Source: Lophium mytilinum
Taxonomy: Eukaryota > Ascomycota > Dothideomycetes > Mytilinidiales > Mytilinidiaceae
Assembly: GCA_010093605.1 (NCBI GenBank)
Contig: MU004186.1
Coordinates: forward strand, 1,530,616-1,594,615
Direction: 5' to 3'
Length of the DNA: 64,000 nucleotides
How positions within the stretch are numbered: position 1 is the stretch's first letter; each line of letters begins with the position of its first letter. Below, one piece after another: positions 38,996 to 61,300 of the stretch. The notes beneath the pieces are model-generated. The model did no database searches. It was not told where the DNA came from and saw nothing but the letters and a program-made list of their open reading frames with translations. The translations under genes and the position numbers were made by a program.

Positions 38996-39500
38996 TCGTG
39001 TTGCATTAGTAGCGAAGTTGCGTCTTGAAAAGTATGAAGACGATATCATTCACGGTATGAGAGGGCTATGACGAGCCTAGGACTGTGGTATGCTTTCTGA
39101 ATAGGTCTGTGTACACTTTCTTGCCTTTATCATTGCTTCTAGGTCCTTAAAGTGTCTCGTATGGCGTTGTCTGATAATCTTTTCGTGTTGCGCGGCCGCC
39201 CTGTGGGAACACGGAAAGGCTTCATTATAGATCTGTGCACAACTGGCTGCCTCAATAGCCTTTGACAAAAGTGAATGAGATGGAAAACCGTCATTTTGAA
39301 CAGTCAGTAAGCTCGTTGGGCCGCCTCAGCTGCTGGTGCCCACGAACGTCACCTGACCCTCGCTCACTTCACCGCCAGCCATTGCTCTTTCCTTCTTAGC
39401 CTCTTATTACCTCTATCACTCTCTCACCACCACCTCTACACCTCACAACGGCCTATTCTGCCGTCACGGCCTATTCTGCCGTCACGACGAGCTGTACAAG
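38996..39500. other. spacer with small tandem repeat
   Basis: The plus strand before the next start is CT/CA-rich. Two copies of CGGCCTATTCTGCCGTCA lie in tandem at about 39449-39484, just ahead of the start codon at 39501. Confidence 0.55.
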
Positions 39501-40846
39501 ATGAGCGCCCTCGGTCCCCTCTATAGTTCCGAAACAGCCACCGGAATCACCTGGGGCATGCCAGTCTCAGTCGTCGCACTTGGTGCTAGCCTAGACAGGT
39601 TCACCAAGCTTCTTCCTCAACTTCAGACCCTTCGCCTGTGCCACCGATACGGCAAAGGCGACGACGTGCACCTCACTAAGCTTCCGAACGAGCTACTGGA
39701 AATGGTCATCAACGAGCTTTACCACATTGAGCCCCGCACCACGTGGCCGGAATGGGAACGGGAGCTGAAGTGTTTTGAAGGTAATTGCACGCCTATCTCT
39801 CACTTCGAGGGCCACGACGGGTTGGACCCACATGACCTACTTCTCCAATACTTCGAGCACGAAGACCCTTACTCTCTGCCGGAAAACGAAATTAAAGATC
39901 GGCTGCATGAGGCCCTACTGGCGTACCAGTGGCATCCGCCCACTTCTGTGCGAGAGTCTCACCCTCACTACCAGCGCAAGATGCAGTGGAAGTGTCGGCT
40001 TACGCAGGACCCTCCGGGACCATGCGGTTTCGCAAAGTACGACCATGTGAGTACCCTCGTTCACCGCCGTCAGGAGTACACCCACAGGCTCAAAACAATC
40101 AAGAGCTATTCTCTTGCTGGTCGCTATTAGCCTTTTGGGCCACCTCTTACGGCGTCAACACATTATCACACCAAGAGCTCTACTGACGTAAACTAGATCC
40201 TCAAGGCCCACTTCGGGCTCGAAGCTTTCATTGCTCACAGGAAGGTGCCAGACAAATTGCGATCAACTTTCCCATGCCCAGGCTGGGACAGTCGTTGCAA
40301 CACCACAGTTTGCTACCTTACACTGCCAGAGGGAACAATTAAGCAAGAAGCAGATGACGAAGGGGGTCTGACCGAAGAGCCCGTCTCTAGGCCCAATGGG
40401 TGGAAGAAGTACGGCAACTCGTCATTCATGACATGCTACGTGGACCCAGAGCTGTTGAACATCACGAAGAACCAGAAGTTGCGCTTCAAAAAAGTACAGA
40501 CCGTCCTCGGTATTGGCCCTCAGCTTCACCTAACCGGGCTCACACGCAGCCAAGCGGGTAAAACTACTGCAAAGACCGACGATTGCGCCCTCGAAACTAC
40601 CAAGACCAAGCTGAACAACGCGATCGACCGTCTAGCAGCGAGCAGAGTGCGTCGCGAACACCACGGTGGAGATGCCATCTTAGAAGAAATTGAGACTGGT
40701 GAGTGACCACTCTTCACCCTATTTACTGAATGATGCAATGCTAAAGTCTCACAGTCCTACTCCCCGAACTCTCTGCGCTCATGGAGTGGCCAAAGCTTCT
40801 CAATGTTGCCAAGACCACATTCGGTCTGCAGGTCCGTCGTGACTGA
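39501..40846 (+). CDS. F-box-like tandem family, member 1
   Basis: Exons 39501-40046, 40197-40698 and 40755-40846; 379 residues; intron phases 0 and 1. The N-terminal module has TGITWGMPVSVVALGA, then LRLCHRYGKGDDVHLTKLPN followed by ELLEMVINELY; the LPNELLEMVINEL part resembles an F-box helix pair. Cys-containing segments follow (LKCFEGNC, WKCRLTQDP). Exon 2 opens ILKAHFGLEAFIAHRK and has a paired-Cys NTTVCYLTLPE core, and exon 3 encodes LMEWPKLLNVAKTTFGL. Members 2 and 3 repeat the layout. F-box function (SCF ubiquitin ligase adaptor) is only a suggestion. I know this type only as unnamed lineage-specific fungal proteins. Confidence 0.75.
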
Positions 40847-41120
40847 CAGTCCCTTGCCAATGTTTGAGGGCCTCTAGTAGAGCCATCAATAGCTGGGCAG
40901 GATGCAAGGTTTCGGGACGGGGGATTGTGGGCGGATTTCTGAGGGCTTTGGATCGATCAGTTTGCTGACTCAGGCCACCTCAGGCGCTGCCAGACCATGA
41001 TGCCCCTTCCTAATCTTGCGCTAAAATTCTCTTTCCATCTTACAGGCGTTTCGATATCCACCTCATGACATGCAGGTAGATTCATATCAATTTTACATTC
41101 ATTTCTTTATCAAACATGCC

Positions 41121-41359
41121 TCTGCGCGTTCTCCCGAGGTGGGTTACCACTGTTTGAGGTGCGTCAATATATTTTCGAAAACTGAGATTCGATGTAAGGT
41201 TTGTGGCCCTCGGATCTATACGAACTACGCGATGCCTTTGATGCGCATTCTCCCGTGGGGTGTTACCACTGTTTGAGGTGCTCCAACTTACTTTCGATAA
41301 CATAGATCCGATGTAAGGTTTGTGACCCTCGAATCTGGACGAATCATGCGATGCGTTTG
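41121..41359 (+). repeat. 119-bp tandem duplication between array members
   Basis: Two direct copies, about 41121-41239 and 41240-41359, with an offset of 119 bases. Shared blocks include GTTACCACTGTTTGAGGTGC and GATGTAAGGTTTGTG. Each copy includes GCGNTTCTCCCG at its start and CGATGC near its end. No inverted ends and no coding signal. Confidence 0.8.
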
Positions 41360-41479
41360 CTCGTTCGGCCACCCCTTGAGCCAACTCACACGTATCGCCC
41401 ATCGAGTAGCTCAAACCCACCAACGTCAGCATCCATCATCCTACACACGCTAATTTCTCCAAAGCATCAATGGAGGTCA

Positions 41480-41879
41480 ATGATCCATTGATAATGTGAG
41501 TCAATCGGCATCGTGGAGGTTGTGTGGATCACATGACACCAGGGGCTCTAAATCGACCTCACTTCTACTTCCATCCTCCTCCATCACCACAACCTGTCAC
41601 CTCCACAGCATCCCATCGCCGTATCGGATCTCCGGTGAGTTCAAGTCCTCCTGTATGCTGATTGTATCGCTGACATCGCTTCTCTTTGATAGCAGTCTCC
41701 CAGGTGACGACCTAGTCGGGCATTCATTGCACGGCTTGGACATCTCTGATCGGGCTGCATCGCATCTCAGGTGAGCTAAAAAGCTCTTTCAGGCTCATCC
41801 TATCACTAACAACATCCTGCTTAGCTAGCAGGTTCATGGGTGACACGTAGTCAGCTGCTCATCGATCTCGTTAGACACG
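41480..41879 (+). promoter_or_regulatory. upstream region of array member 2 with duplicated leader-intron units
   Basis: It carries GATCACATGACAC (41527-41539), which recurs as GATCCCATGACAC (44069-44081) upstream of member 3. Two consecutive units with intron-like ends follow: GTGAGT (41634) to TTGATAG (about 41693) and GTGAGC (41772) to TAGCTAG (about 41829). Each is followed by a CAG-GT-GAC-like exon piece, so the 5' leader seems to have been duplicated together with an intron. Confidence 0.45.
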
Positions 41880-43201
41880 ATGTGTCGTCCCATCACCGAG
41901 GCGGACTCGTCAGCCCAGACAGTCTCCGGCATCATTTGGGCTATGCCAGTCAACATTGCACAGCTCGGAGCTCACCTTCAAGCCTACGATGAAACCAACG
42001 TCGTCACTATACGTTCTTGTCATAGCTTCGGACAAGGAGATGATGTTCACATCAATAAGTTGCCGCTGGAGATTCTCGAGAGGATTATCGAAGAAGTGCA
42101 ATTCTCCGCTCGTGTTACAGCCTTTGAGAGCTGGAACCACCACTTTCTATGCTTCCAGAAACGATGCTGCTCAGAGGATCATCTAAGGAACTTAGATCCA
42201 GAAGAATTCAAAGCGACCAAGTGGCAATATCGTCAATTTCCAGACCTCGATAGCTGTGATCCAGCAGGCTACAAGAGCCTCCGCCTTGCTTGGTATCCAT
42301 CTTCAAGAGAAGAAGCTGGTCCTCGATGCATTGCTCAGAGAGACCAATGGGCATCATTCATTTGTCAGTGTCCCGTCACGCACGAAAGCACCAAAGCTGG
42401 TGCTTTTGTGAAATACGACGAGGTACGTTCCCCATTGTAGGGTATAGCGGCACCGTGACGACGAGCTTACAGCGGTGCTGACCAGATTTTAAAATCCGAA
42501 TTTGGCCTTGAGGCACTTATCTTCTCCCACGAAATCGACAGAAAGCTGAACATGGGCGGCCACGTTGCATCGTCAACTAGATACCATACCACCACATGTT
42601 ATCTCATCCTACCGGCCCGCTTGTCCCGAGATATCATCCGCCACAGGGAACACACTCCTGAGTCCCCAGAATGCGCTCAGGGACTATTCAATCAACGCTG
42701 GGGAGACACGATTAGCAACACTCTGAGTAGCTCAGTCATTGACCCATCATCTCTGAGCATTACGGCGGAACAGAGGTCACGATTCGGGAAAGTGAGGCGA
42801 CTACTCGGTCTCAAACCATACGTACCCTCCGCGCAACTTAATGACGCTCTGTCCGCGTACTGTCCGGCGGAGTCAAACAGTGGAATAGGCTTCAGACCAA
42901 AGCTTGATATTGAACCGTACCTTGGATGGAAGATGAACGAATGGGCGGAGAAATTGGCTGCGCGTCGGGAAGCCATTGAGGCACACAACAAGAGTATGTA
43001 CTTCGTTGTTCTTTTGGGTTTCGATACTGACTAGGCTCGGTAGTGATCGAGAATCTGACCTGGCCGCAGCTAATCAGCTTTGCGAAGTCGGACTTCTATT
43101 CGCGTGGCAGCTGGCATGGTGCCTCCTCGCTAGGATCTCCTCGTTTTCCGGATTCTGAGCCTTCCTGCGGAGACCGCCCTGAAGGTCACTCGATCGAATA
43201 G
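41880..43201 (+). CDS. F-box-like tandem family, member 2
   Basis: Exons 41880-42422, 42486-42993 and 43035-43201; 405 residues; the same intron positions and phases (0, 1) as member 1. The start MCRPITEADSS is followed by SGIIWAMPVNIAQLGAHLQA, then SFGQGDDVHINKLPLEILER (F-box-like), FLCFQKRCC, and a Cys pair in FICQCPVTHE. Exon 2 begins ILKSEFGLEALIFSHEID and has the TTTCYLILPA core; exon 3 has LTWPQLISFAKSDFYS. Intron 2 is only 41 nt but has GTATGT and ACTGAC signals. Product function unknown. Divergence from member 1 is large, so the duplication is old. Confidence 0.75.
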
Positions 43202-44230
43202 TTACAGCTAGTGATTCGTGTATCGGCTTCCCACACCCTTTCTTGATTGCAGTTCGACAATACTTAGCGGCCGGGCACATTCTTTCGGACCCGTGTCTGA
43301 TGACCATGCTCGAAGCTTGCTTTTCTAGATGCTCAGATCAAGAAACTGGCACATGAGGATTCGGATGCAAATGCTGTCTTTAATTTATGGCGGAAGCGTC
43401 GCACCTATGGTATCTTATGTTGCGGTCTTCACAACTTCATTGATCCACAAAACTTCTGGGTCGAACGAAGTAGTAGGTACGACTTGCGAAATAAGGCTTC
43501 AATCTCTTTCCAATTCATCTCGATAGTCATTCATATTTCTTACAAACACGGAGATTACGTGACTTTCTTATGAAACAGTCGACGCTCTTTGCAATGTTTC
43601 CATTGTGCAGAGTAGACCGACTCGTCCCCATGCGTGGTTGTAAGAGGAGCCCTCATGAGTAAAACAACAGTAACTAAATATGCTTTACTTTACTTTCCAC
43701 ACTCGAGATGCTTGTAGTGACTATCCCCTATTGGTCCACGGAGATGATGACGATACCATCCTTAGGGTGATTCCCTCGCGCAGCGACTGAATTCCATAGA
43801 CTCGAAAGCTGATTGAGCTCCGGCCAGTAAGGTTTCCCCAAATCGACTAAGTTTCTGGAATTGAGCTGGTCCATCCTAAGTTGGTGATAAAGATGTGTCG
43901 AGCTCTCTGAATTTACAGTAGGATCGCGCAGACTCAAGAGTCAACTTATGTCGCACTGGTGAGGTCTAGCAAGCATCTCATGTGTATTTTAAGACTTATA
44001 AATTGAACTGAAGGAAACTACCCTTAAAAGTGGCATTTTCGGGCCTAGCAATTGCAAGTTCGTGGTGTGATCCCATGACACGCTGGAGCTCCCAGCCATG
44101 GTTCACCTGCATGGAGTCGTACGGTCCATGGTTTACCTCGCTTTCTCCTCTTCTTGCTCCACAGTCGGAGCTGTTGCATTACCTTCTGCCTTCACCAAAC
44201 TCCAAAATCATTACCAAGCAAGGAAACACA
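43202..44230. other. spacer between array members 2 and 3
   Basis: Apart from the possible exon at 43328-43573 and the shared upstream motif at 44069-44081, I see no feature. Confidence 0.45.
43328..43573 (+). other. possible orphan exon or gene remnant
   Basis: An 82-codon open frame follows a TTTTCTAG acceptor-like site and reads protein-like (KKLAHEDSDANAVFNLWRKR then TYGILCCGLHNFIDPQ). Upstream the frame is closed and no start is evident. It could be the last exon of a lost gene or a relic left by duplication. I do not recognise it. Confidence 0.3.
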
Positions 44231-44797
44231 ATGTGTCGTCCACCAGGCCAGTCAGACAGCCCATTTCAAACTATCTTGGGACTGGTCTGGGCCATGCCGG
44301 TCGACATCGCTCGTTTCGGAGCCCACCTTGAAGCTTACGTGGCGTCTAGTCCTGGGATTCAAGCCCTGAGGCTTTGCTGTCGATTCGGAGAAGGCGTCAA
44401 TGTTTACATCAACAAGCTGCCGGAAGAACTCATCGCAAGCGTCATTGTAGAGCTGCAGCGACCAGCGCGCGCGATTGCATTCGCTGAATGGAGCACAGGA
44501 TTTAAGTGCTTTCGAAAAGATTGCTCCATGCAGAACCACATGAATGGAGACTTTCTGAGAGAGGTTCAAGCGGAGTACCGCCTGGAACACATCAGCCCTG
44601 GACAGCTACAGGAACCTACCCAGACAGAACTTCTAGAATTCATGGCGAAGAAGAGGAGTTCGTCGGAACTCAATTTCTGTTGCTTGAGGCGGATTCTGCG
44701 AAATGCCAGGATCAAAAATCAGCATGGATTCAGAAAGTCTGTCAATGCCAAGGTATGGCATCGTCTGCGGAAGGGATTCTTTCTGAAATTTGACAGG
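44231..44797 (+). CDS. F-box-like tandem family, member 3, 3' truncated
   Basis: Only the first exon is recognisable: 189 codons from MCRPPGQSDSPFQ to KGFFLKFDR, ending in phase 0 at a GTATGT donor exactly where members 1 and 2 end exon 1. It has the family blocks LGLVWAMPVDIARFGAHLEA, CCRFGEGVNVYINKLPEELI and FKCFRKDC. The expected second exon (ILK-x-x-FGLEA and paired Cys) is not found within 1 kb. Reading through stops at 44806; possible acceptors before 44841 or 44923 lead only to short unrelated tails. It is either a degenerate copy or one with a new short end. The start is chosen by match to member 2; an in-frame ATG at 44030 gives an unrelated extension. Confidence 0.6.
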
Positions 44798-45691
44798 GTA
44801 TGTTGAAGCCTTCTGCTTCGAAATTGCATCGAGCTGATTCAAGATTTCTTCAAACTTGTCCTGTGCCCCACTTCGACGTAAAATGGATATCCTCCATGAG
44901 CCTATTCTGATTCACTTTCAGGCTCGCAAGATCCTTCTCGTTTGTTTCTTTCGTATGCAATTGCCATCGTGAAGAGCTTGAGAGTACCCTGCATCCAATT
45001 GGTCCCGAGAGAGTGCCCAAAGCTCCGAGGCGTGACCTCGAATAGCTCCGTCGTGCAAGGCGAAAAGCTGTTGCAGACAGCTTCATCCCTGGTACTGCCA
45101 TGTTGTGCAAGTTCATTGGAGTTTAGGTTCCATGGGGGGTGCAGTTGATATAACAAGCGAGCGGTTGCTGTGGACCTCTGGTGACATAATGTAGTTCTAG
45201 CGGGGATCTCCTATATCCGATAAGGTTGTTTTTAGCATAACCCCTCACGCCCCTGTAACTCTCCTGATATTACGAGAATTGAGGCCTCTTTTGCTGGCCA
45301 GACATACATATAACGCTTTATCTAAAGCCTTGCTTCCAAAGTCTTTTTTCTCTCTCGATCATTGCACCACCTCAAAAGCGTCTCATCAGGATCAAACTCT
45401 AACTTGCTTTTTAAATGTCTTAGACGCTATGGAAGCTCTTTAGTTGAGTGAGCTGCAATTGTAAAATGATGCTATTCAGGAGAGCAGCTTGACAAGCAAA
45501 GTGTGGGCTAAAGGAGCGGATTTCTCCGCTGTTGCACGGGAATGTCCAATTTCCTTTAGAAAATGTAGAAAGTTGAACAGGCAATGCATTAGACCCCTGA
45601 CCAGATACTTCGTAATAAGGGTATTGCACTAGCAACCTTTGACGTCGTGAAATCCTAGGACCGTGAACTTCCCTTACGCCTTACAGCCCAT
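44798..45691. other. spacer after tandem array
   Basis: No gene recognised. Minus-strand frames of 70-90 codons have no motif. Confidence 0.45.
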
Positions 45692-46570
45692 CTAAAGCCA
45701 CTTCGAGAACCACTTAATCGCTTGCTCCTTCGCATCATCAGCGCCTTGCACATCCGCAGTTCCAGGTCTCGCCCTTGCTGCAAAGCCATGGGCGCAGCCC
45801 TTGTAAGTGATGAACTCGTAGTTGTATCCGTTCTCTCCATTTCCTGTCGCGTTGTACTTCTGCTTGAGCTCAGCCTCAGCAGTATCCATCTTCGCCGTCG
45901 ACCAGTTGAAGTCGTTCTCCGCGTGCGCCAGCGAGTATGGCACCTTGTATGTGGTGATGGCAGCCACGACCTGTTCCGGGCCCTTCAGGGCAGATGGATG
46001 TGCGCAGAATTGCGCATCAATCAATTGCTCCGAGCCTCCTTCCACCGCCGGCTCGACGCACAGATTTGTGCTGCCATATCCACCCCAGCAGAATCCACAG
46101 ACGCCGAGCTTGCCGCCCGGTGGTATATCTGCCTTCAATTTGCGGGCATATTCGAGTTCGCTCTTGAAGATGTGGGCTTTGTCGGGAGACGCTTTGAGCA
46201 TGAACGGGACGAAGTGCCTCGCTGCATTGGCGACTGACCAGATCCGGGACAGCTGTCCGAGGATGTCCCACCATTTCACGGGCTTCATCACATTGTCCAT
46301 ATGGGCGATGACGGCAGGCTCCACGCCATGGCCTGGGATGATGTCTGGGATGACGACGCGATGGCCAGTGCGGAGGGCGTAGTCGTCGGCGAGAAGCTTG
46401 TTGTTGACAAGTTTGAGGCCGAAGGCGTCGGTGATGAAGAGGATGGTAGATTTAGAGGTTGTGGAGGAGGGAGGAAGTGCGACATAGGTGGTGACGCCGT
46501 AGAGGGTGGTGAGTGCACCTTTGGGCTCGCCTTTGGCTTGTCCGCCTCGGAAACAGTCAGGACAGGACAT
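45692..46570 (-). CDS. dienelactone hydrolase family protein
   Basis: Single exon, 292 residues from MSCPDCFRGGQAKGEP. It is an alpha/beta-hydrolase with the family nucleophile elbow GVCGFCWGGYG (catalytic Cys), a QFCAHPSAL segment, an acid-bearing YSLAHAENDFNW and the catalytic His in GCAHGFAAR near the C terminus. The N-terminal ALTTLYGVTTYVALPPSS and ILFITDAFGLKLVNNKLLAD fit fungal DLH paralogues. Family members hydrolyse lactone or ester bonds in the cytosol; the substrate here is unknown. It is close to the normal length of about 250-290 residues. Confidence 0.93.
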   Translation of the reverse strand: MSCPDCFRGGQAKGEPKGALTTLYGVTTYVALPPSSTTSKSTILFITDAFGLKLVNNKLLADDYALRTGHRVVIPDIIPGHGVEPAVIAHMDNVMKPVKWWDILGQLSRIWSVANAARHFVPFMLKASPDKAHIFKSELEYARKLKADIPPGGKLGVCGFCWGGYGSTNLCVEPAVEGGSEQLIDAQFCAHPSALKGPEQVVAAITTYKVPYSLAHAENDFNWSTAKMDTAEAELKQKYNATGNGENGYNYEFITYKGCAHGFAARARPGTADVQGADDAKEQAIKWFSKWL

Positions 46571-46931
46571 TGTGAGTTAATTGAAAGGTGAATTGGGCGA
46601 ATGCGAAATATTTATAGCAAGGTTGGAGTTTGTAGAGGTTGAGTGCGTCTTCATGGTGATGTATACCTAGCTTCGCGTCGATCCCCGCCTCTATGCCGGT
46701 GATAACGGTAATAAAGCAACGCGAGGACGACGGTAGTACAGAAGAGGCTAGTGTCGCGCTTTCACTCCCTCAAAACTCCACTCAGGCCATGCTCCAATAT
46801 GGAAATCGCTGTCCTGATTCGCAGGAGCGGCGTAAAGTCTTTCCGTCAGATACCTGGACAGCCTCACAATTTGGAGCCTTATCGCAATAGACGAACGAGT
46901 ACATAAGCGCTATAGAAGCTAGCGTCATCCT
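46571..46931. other. spacer upstream of the dienelactone hydrolase gene
   Basis: Promoter side of the hydrolase. No gene seen. Confidence 0.4.
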
Positions 46932-58057: not shown

Positions 58058-58288
58058 TACAGTTACAGGCCAAAAGTCTGGGCACACTACTTTGCCACTG
58101 CTTGGGGTACCCCGATAAGGTTACAAACCTCTGGCCATGAAGTTAAGTTCTGGGTAGTGCAAACCAGACTACCTCTTGACTGCCTAGCTATCGAGCAGCC
58201 AAGCTACCCCTCACAGTGGTGTCAAGTGAGCAAAGTGGAGCTGAAGGGTGTTTGTTTCGTGTGCCTAGACTTATGGCCTAGTACTGTA
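58058..58288. mobile_element. Tc1/mariner-like MITE, copy 1 (231 bp)
   Basis: Inverted ends of 30 bases, 58058-58087 and 58259-58288, agree at 25 positions and both start TACAGT, that is TA plus CAGT, the usual start of Tc1/mariner elements. Internal sequence is non-coding. It sits 100 bp past the stop codon of the receptor gene that reads leftward, so it may lie in its 3' untranslated region. Confidence 0.82.
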
Positions 58289-58387
58289 GGCCCTCAGGGG
58301 CTCAGCTTCCCGCGCCGTGGTGGAGGAGTAGCTCTACAATCTCTTGATTTTTTTGCTTTGTTGCTAGTGATAAAGCCGTATTGCCTT

Positions 58388-61300
58388 CTAGTCCTCTGAG
58401 TTTGAGTCGACGTCGTCCCGCTCAAGCAGCAATCTCACCACTTCCGTCTGCATCCAATGTATCGCCTCCATGAGCGGTGTTTTGCCATTGAATTTCTTCA
58501 CGTCTGCCTTAATCTCATTCCGTTGAAGTAGTACGTTCGTCACTGGCGCATGTCCTTCCGTCGCTGCGTGATGTAATGCCGTGTTGCCATCTCCATCTTG
58601 CAAATTGATGTCTACGTCCTCCCGCTGTAGTAGAAGCTTTGTCACTAGCTCATATCCTCGCTTTGCTGCGTGATGTAATGCCGTGTTGCCGTCTCTATCT
58701 TGCAAGTTGATGTCTACGTCGTCCCGCTTGAGGAGCAGTCTCGCCGATAACTCATAGCCATACTTTGCTGTCCCAAGAAGTGGCGTGCCGCCCCTATTGT
58801 TACGTATATTGACTTTGGTCTCGGTCCGCTGAAGTAGCAGCTTCATCGTTGGTTCGAGTCCTCGATACGCTGCCAAATGTAATGCAGTGTCACCGCGTTG
58901 ATCTTGATGATTGATGTCTACGTCATCCCGCTCGAGAAGTAGCCTTGCTATCCCCTCATGACCATTATCGACTGCGATCGAAAGTGCTGACGGGCGCATG
59001 CCAGCTTCTACGTTAACGTCAATGTCGTCCCGCGCAAGGAGAAGCTCTAGTATTCCATCATGCCCGTTTTGTGCTGCTAAGAATAGCGGCGTGTTTGCGT
59101 TCCTATTTGGGTTATTAACTTCAATGCCACTTCTCTTGAGTAGCAGCTTCACGACTGGCTCATGCCCGTTATCTACAGCTAGACAAAGTGGAATTGCTAG
59201 ACAAAGTGGAATTCGCCATAGTGTTCCCGACCACAGCGGACCCTTATCGCCTCTGTATCCCGAGTTGAGGTCGACATCGTCTCGCTCTAGTAAGAGATTG
59301 ACTATCGCCTCATGTCCTGATTGTGCAGCTCGCGACAGTGGAGAATAGCCCCAATCGTCTCGAATATCGGCGAAGCTTTCGTCATCAGTGTCTGATATTT
59401 GCAGCAGTAGCCTTGTCAGATGAAGTAGTCCCAGCCGTGCTGTGAGATGCAGGCCAACAGACCCGGCCGGGTATTCTGGCCCCGAATCACCAATTTGGTA
59501 TTCTTCCGGATCGTGGTAAAGGACCTGAAGGAGACATGCGATCAAATTGGCGTCCCGAAGTACGGTTAACGCTAGCTCGGACACCTCTTCTTGCATTGTG
59601 GATGCGTGATTGCCCCAGTAGCGAGCAGCGTAATGAAGGAGCGGATTTATCCGAAGTCTTGTACGGAAGTCAATATACCCTGCACAATCCCCGCTCTTGA
59701 AAGTGTCGAAGCAAAGATAGGTCAGGCAGATAGAGGTGATGTCCTCTTGCGCTTTAGGAATCCAACGTTGCCGTATGCGCTCGAAGTATTCTTGCGTAGT
59801 GTAATGCACCAGGCGCACGTTATCACTGTCGTAATCGAAAGTAACGAGGCCAGCACAGACTGAGACCAGGTCTTCGATATCCGGGATGTTGTCCGGATCG
59901 AGTTCTTTATCACCTGGCTCCACCGCTAATGCATGGCATAGCTCACGCGCTGTGAGCTGTCTCTCCGCATAGATGATCCAGGAGAGTACAGCCCTTGCCG
60001 ACTCGCGATCCCCGGATTGCTGTCGTTCGATTCTGTCAATCGCTGCGTCGTACGCCTCGTTTAGTGCGGAAAATCCTTTTTGGAAGGTGTTAAGCGCAGT
60101 CTGTAATTTCTTCTTGGTGTTTTTATCCAATAGAGAGTCGAAATGGAGACGAGCGAGAAGGAACCTGGGACACTCGTAAGCTAAAGTCAAGATAACAATT
60201 CGAATACTAACATCCCATCTACAGCTTCAGCAATCTTCTCCTGCACTAATACCTGCAACCCACTGTCTCGCTGGACGTATCCGGGAAGCTCATCCATACG
60301 GCCTTTGACAAATCGCTTCACGTCTGCTGCGCTCGCTCGCACTTCCAGCGTCGGCGTCGACTCAAATTCCTTTACAATTTCTGGGATGAAGCGCGAGGTA
60401 CCCATCAGATGGAGATTTGATTTCGACTGTAAATCACGAAGCGTACTTATAAGCTTGCGTGTCGTGCCCTCTTTGTCCGAGCACTCATCAAGCGCATCAA
60501 CGACCAAGTATACTGTCGAGAAGTCATTGAGCACGATTTGCAGGGTATCAGTAATCTCATTCAACGATGGTCTAGTCTTTTCGTGGCGATGGATTTCGTA
60601 TAAACTTGCTATAGCCTGAGGCGTGGACGACTGAGCTTGACCTAGCTGCTTGAGGATGGCAGCAAGGAAGTAACTGACTGACTGTTCTGTCTGCGCCTTA
60701 TAGTTGCAAAACAGATAAGCCACAGCAACGTTTTGGGTTTGAGAAGCTCGCAAGTACTCGATTGTGATTGCGGACATCATCGTCTTTCCGGCCCCAGGTA
60801 TGCCGGGGCAGAATAGGGTTTTGTTCGAGCCGTGAACCCATTCAGAGAATTCATTCGCTGCAAGGAACCATAGACCCGTGTCCTCTTGCTTCCTAGCGAT
60901 GAAGTCGGACTGCTGCAGTGGAAAGTTGGTTGGAGATAGCCAATCCAGTATTTCGTCGTGCCGTTGACGATGCTGATCTTGCTCAAGCGCTGCCACGCCC
61001 TTGTGGGTAGCTTTCGAGAGTTCACTGTAAGCGTTAGTATGTAGACCTATGAATTCAGGCCGTCATATAGTGACAAGCCACAAGTCTGGGCACACTGGTA
61101 CGCCACTGCTTGGGGCCCCCGCATGGTTTCGAGGACTCAAGAGCGATGTCAAGCTTCAAACAGTGCAGATTAGACTGCCTCTTGACTAATTGCCTGCTCA
61201 GCAGCTAGGCTACCCCCAACAGTGGTATAGAGTGAGCAAACTGGAGATTAACTGGATTCAGTCCGTATGCCCAGACTTATGGCCTAGTACTGTATATTGA

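Follow-up and report, generated by a model that had tools for sequence, protein, structure and literature searches.

What kind of gene occurs three times in a row in a 64,000-nucleotide stretch of the Lophium mytilinum genome (the window; contig C6, 1530616-1594615), and why does the third copy end where the first exon of the other two ends? The initial annotation had read three paralogues in the same direction at 39501..44797, here called M1, M2 and M3, and both limits proved exact: M1 starts at 39501 and exon 1 of M3 ends at 44797. Its introns, gene content and repeats point to a filamentous ascomycete. We searched the 43.2-Mb assembly (24 contigs) for relatives; the search scores the best candidates only, and family copy counts are therefore lower bounds. 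The array belongs to a small lineage-type family, an orphan by Pfam and PDB, with a decayed tandem member whose truncation is traceable; it is ordinary in kind.

Seven exon-1 and exon-2 protein searches of the genome recovered a fourth gene, M4, which is complete, runs from C6:2020034 onward, encodes 406 residues as modelled and lies 445 kb from the array on the same contig. Two relics were also found. The first is an exon-1 relic with one in-frame TAG, about 14 kb from the end of its contig (C15:1720496-1720720; recovered with M4 exon 1, E 2.7e-4). The second, with one in-frame TAA, is an exon-2 relic 1.25 Mb from the array (C6:321548-321772; recovered with M2 exon 2, E 2.3e-4, and, less clearly, with M4 exon 2, E 0.036). 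Visual inspection shows an exon-3-like stretch behind it, EKWPQLFNFMKSSV, whose acceptor has the family phase; the nearest donor-like site is out of that phase. Contig C2 gave a match to M1 exon 1 (E 0.25), which we put down to chance. Four scans of viral contigs and prokaryote genomes confirmed no relative, which is what one would expect of a fungal family. Thus, we are dealing with a small multigene family of three-exon layout, comprising at least four genes with exon 1 (M1, M2 and M4 complete) and two relics. The family extends beyond the array: the "local expansion" proposed in the initial annotation describes the tandem copies well but not M4 or the two distant relics.

To what extent are these genes alike? 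Exon similarity was compared with 500 shuffles per pair in 12 exon pairs, and in all 12 the observed score was reached by none of the shuffles. Exon 1 scored 198-261 in its six pairs (top shuffle 65) and exon 2 125-137 in its three pairs (top shuffle 66). The similarity of exon 3 was modest, 38-41 in three of three pairs, yet still above all 500 shuffles (top 36). Identity to M2 was 30% (M1), 36% (M3) and 33% (M4) in exon 1, and 29% (M1) and 32% (M4) in exon 2. Judged by these alignments, M1, M2 and M3 are genuine, old and highly diverged paralogues, and the high divergence first noted between the copies (about 29-36% identity to M2 in exons 1 and 2) is real. Exon lengths modulo 3 give intron phases 0 then 1 in M1 and M2, as the initial annotation had it, and in the independent member M4. 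All six introns are of the GT...AG type and 50-150 bp long. The splicing models of M1 and M2 rest on these conserved frames and sites.

Third codon positions varied more than second positions in all nine comparisons, and the genes therefore are, or long were, protein-coding. The contrast was significant in the exon-1 core (102 ungapped columns, six pairs; Fisher p 0.012 to 1.1e-5) and in exon 2 (144 columns, three pairs; p 0.0026 to 1.5e-6). Towards the C-terminus, where the exon-1 alignment is ragged (68 columns), several pairs showed only a small contrast. The three complete genes show codon-level constraint: the family had been called "still decaying", which is apt for M3 and the relics but not for M1, M2 and M4.

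Why does M3 stop short? A GTATGT donor directly follows its exon 1 at 44797. An exon 2 behind M3 scored 30 at best, against a shuffle mean of 36 (maximum 48, 200 shuffles), so M3 indeed consists of exon 1 only, up to the homologous donor. A candidate exon 3 behind M3 was rejected because 11 of 500 shuffles reached its score of 39 and the alignment lay outside the conserved WPxL part. Instead, the place where exons 2 and 3 are expected holds a 599-bp copied segment, which starts 53 bp beyond the donor and corresponds to the 5' end of an M20-peptidase-like gene and the region upstream of it. Window 44851-45449 matches C6:321037-321612 with 80% identity over 608 alignment columns; these were the two genomic places found, with no third, in a search that skips very common words. 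Per 100 columns, identity is 95, 89 and 89 over the coding part and drops to 59-78 beyond. The window copy aligns over 90 residues, the last 30 of them identical, and 12 of 22 differences fall at third positions. At the other locus, the segment spans an open frame on the minus strand (L061 4428-4730), next to further minus-strand frames, and those downstream match Peptidase_M20 (E 3.3e-16) and M20_dimer. The N-terminal frames are assigned to the M20-like gene on the strength of their adjacency and of a motif of N-carbamoyl-amino-acid hydrolases.

The far side of the segment at that locus runs straight into the exon-2/3 relic of the family. The window thus has exon 1 plus the M20-like 5' piece, and the other locus has the same gene start plus exons 2b-3. 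M2 is the closest member both to M3 exon 1 (46% over 104 residues) and to the C6 relic (38% over 52 residues). These matches suggest that a single gene may have been rearranged, leaving M3 and the C6 relic as its complementary halves. An M20-like gene would have landed within or next to a family copy, either M3 or a near twin; a later rearrangement with duplication would have parted the halves and joined the first intron of M3 to the M20-like piece. The relic, 1.25 Mb off, would then probably be the other half of M3 or of the near twin.

Several results weigh against this scenario and the wider family reading. Protein searches with exon 1 of M1, M2 or M3 missed the C15 relic, and the search with M1 exon 2 missed the C6 relic. 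The N-terminal frames of the M20-like gene get no Pfam match of their own. The 53 bp between the M3 donor and the segment match the other locus no better than shuffles do (score 20, shuffle maximum 27), and no recognisable relic sequence follows in the window after 45449. An independent copy event must be considered because the 53 bp and the DNA after 45449 match the other locus no further. In that case, the C6 exon-2/3 relic would be a separate family copy that happened to lie beside the M20 gene, and a later copying event would have placed no more than the 5' end of that gene and a few bases behind M3. That the window piece ends about where the recognisable exon 2 of the relic starts, and that nothing further is common to both loci, fit such a copy event; however, it needs two events that by chance left complementary gene halves flanking the same 599 bp. 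We regard it as a serious contender that falls somewhat short of even chances.

M3 could alternatively be a working short gene, either read through to the stop at 44806 or spliced to an acceptor-like site before 44923. Its stop-to-stop frame is 264 codons long, whereas 500 mononucleotide shuffles of the region gave at most 197; a comparison with M2 shows conserved second positions in its exon-1 core (p 1.1e-5); and an acceptor-like TTTCAG can be seen by eye at 44917-44922. However, constraint on a shared branch is no proof of constraint after truncation, the acceptor-like site lies within the copied M20-gene piece and occurs in the other copy as well, and, towards the C-terminal end of exon 1, the differences between M3 and M2 are spread nearly evenly over the three codon positions (46, 41 and 51 of 68). 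A working M3 thus appears unlikely, and M3 is probably a truncated gene or a pseudogene.

What do the complete genes encode? No Pfam family passed for spliced M1 and M2, for M3 or for any single exon-1 or exon-2 protein, and a PDB profile search found no solved relative (best E 0.23), in line with the failure of the initial annotation to name a family. Sub-threshold Pfam matches, each to one member, were judged to be chance (DNA_pol3_tau_4, E 0.042-0.049; LPD28, E 0.067; Glyco_transf_10, E 0.11). A literature search at the level of titles and abstracts gave no account of such a family. The one hint offered at the outset was an F-box, from an LPxEL motif. Pfam F-box (PF00646) matched none of M1, M2, M3 or the four exon-1 proteins up to E 10. 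The genome holds at least 78 Pfam F-box matches (E <= 0.001; 150 of 186 candidates scored), and M1-M4 are not among the 78 listed. As controls, we took the 30 top loci of the 78 and kept 28 slices, dropping two with a stop. The four-protein exon-1 profile scored 22.1 against these F-boxes over 16 columns, covering the LPxEL helix 1 only, above all 60 column-shuffled controls (maximum 14.4). A shorter, three-sequence core alignment scored 20.3 over 18 columns. By comparison, true F-boxes drawn in sets of four reached 50-77 over at least 38 columns in 40 of 40 draws. Single members scored 1.7-6.3 bits with the F-box profile, whereas the 28 true F-boxes, left out in turn, scored 21-51. Helix 1, with its LP-x-E-L/I-L-x-x-I segment, therefore looks F-box-like from the alignments; the domain as a whole does not, as helices 2-3 stay unaligned, and F-box as the name of the family has to be dropped. 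That M1-M4 are true, extremely divergent F-box proteins, with LPxEL binding SKP1 and the remainder recruiting substrates, is improbable: the helix-1 score and the abundance of F-box paralogues in the genome speak for it, and the missing Pfam match and the scores far under those of true F-boxes speak against it.

Directly behind the LPxEL stretch, the four genes and the C15 relic carry a C-x4-C-x4-H motif. Residues invariant in all four exon-1 proteins include L61, P62 and E64 of LPxEL, C91, C96 and H101, and one further cysteine upstream, C47 (M2 numbering). In uncharacterised Dothideomycetes proteins, too, KLPxEL comes before CFxxxCxxxxH, a shared order that is a lead only. Within the first 60 residues, the highest Kyte-Doolittle mean over 15 residues was 1.35-1.49 in all four proteins; because the N-terminus is not strongly hydrophobic, we take the proteins to be intracellular. 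The predicted products of the complete genes would be mostly helical and about 380-406 residues long. Exon 1 would encode an N-terminal helical module with the F-box-helix-1-like segment followed by C-x4-C-x4-H, possibly metal-stabilised and protein-binding, and exon 2 a second conserved module. Adaptor function and metal binding are guesses that face the lack of a PDB relative and of a Pfam family, and two AlphaFold models on shallow alignments that are too poor for reading a fold (mean pLDDT, the predicted local distance difference test, 35.2 and 46.5). An intracellular adaptor of any kind, whose helical exon-1 domain would bind a partner protein, is our best guess at a function, though a doubtful one; SKP1 as that partner is more doubtful still. 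Least likely of all is the full combination: an undescribed family joining an F-box-helix-1-like segment to a C-x4-C-x4-H metal site in a new SKP1-binding or other adaptor module, with one member split over 1.25 Mb and the same M20-like piece at both ends. Taken together, we moderately favour the reading that this small family encodes intracellular, adaptor-like proteins and that M3 was cut by rearrangement.

The features are collected in Table 1.

Table 1. Features of the M1-M3 array and its flanks (window positions)
Feature	Position	Strand	Details
Left flank: DUF2470-bearing gene	about 38.0-39.0 kb	+	
M1, whole gene	39501-40846	+	379 aa, three exons
M1 exon 1	39501..40046	+	182 codons, phase 0 end
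M1 F-box-helix-1-like stretch (LP-x-E-L)	39681..39719	+	codons 61-73
M1 C-x4-C-x4-H	39771..39803	+	
M1 exon 2	40197..40698	+	phase 1 end
M1 exon 3 incl. stop	40755..40846	+	contains WPKL
M2, whole gene	41880-43201	+	402 aa, three exons
M2 exon 1	41880..42422	+	phase 0 end
M2 F-box-helix-1-like stretch	42060..42098	+	codons 61-73
M2 C-x4-C-x4-H	42150..42182	+	
M2 exon 2	42486..42993	+	phase 1 end
M2 exon 3 incl. stop	43044..43201	+	contains WPQL
M3, exon 1 only	44231..44797	+	frame stop at 44806, three codons beyond homologous donor
M3 F-box-helix-1-like stretch	44417..44455	+	codons 63-75
M3 C-x4-C-x4-H	44507..44539	+	
Copied M20-peptidase-like 5' end and upstream region	44851..45449	-	where M3 exons 2-3 are expected; minus-strand open frame 44850-45122
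Right flank: dienelactone-hydrolase-family gene	45692-46576	-	

Do the genes share upstream sequence? The 200 bp upstream of the genes showed no similarity beyond shuffles in four of the six possible pairs. Between M1 and M2 lies a tandem pair (41123-41240 and 41242-41359, about 118-119 nt each, 82% identical), and the sequence TTACCACTGTTTGAGG occurs twice upstream of M2, in these tandem copies, with a similar form upstream of M4. We rejected it as a shared family promoter element: the M4-upstream version sits in dispersed repeats, and a DNA search of the genome returned the M2-upstream tandem stretch at this one place. The leader of M1 contains an 18-bp perfect tandem duplication (ACGGCCTATTCTGCCGTC, window 39448-39483).

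The dispersed repeats were searched with the stretch upstream of M4, and the best 40 of 381 candidates were scored. Most of the 40 are of one kind, a repeat about 216-230 bp long, bounded by terminal inverted repeats, that resembles a miniature inverted-repeat transposable element (MITE). MITE-like copies lie at L063 5105-5327 and 8101-8332 and at window 61064-61294 and 58058-58289. They flank M4, one upstream and one downstream, and two more are in the window; the copy upstream of M4 has 29-nt arms that are 90% complementary. Directly upstream of M4 is a second repeat of about 360-440 bp (L003 854-1215, C6 about 2019387-2019748); the 40 scored matches include at least six more copies of it (76-84% identity), on C9, C6, C2, C3, C4 and C14. 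Near the MITE-like copies, window 58388-61062 (minus strand) holds an NPHP3_N/NACHT-like frame and then a winged-helix and ankyrin-repeat frame, which resemble fungal NOD-like receptor (NLR)-like proteins.

Lineage-restricted multigene families of filamentous ascomycetes come with tandem copies and relics. The family described here is like them in its few copies, strong divergence, decay products and nearby dispersed repeats; it differs in that the truncation is traceable to a specific second locus. Filamentous fungi have many families that lack a domain model, and most of these are never followed. This one can be recognised elsewhere by its fixed intron phases, its C-x4-C-x4-H motif and its WPxL tail. 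M3 and the second locus would exemplify the death of a tandem copy by rearrangement rather than by point mutation, and the adaptor guess, if true, would add a ligand-binding module unseen by Pfam.

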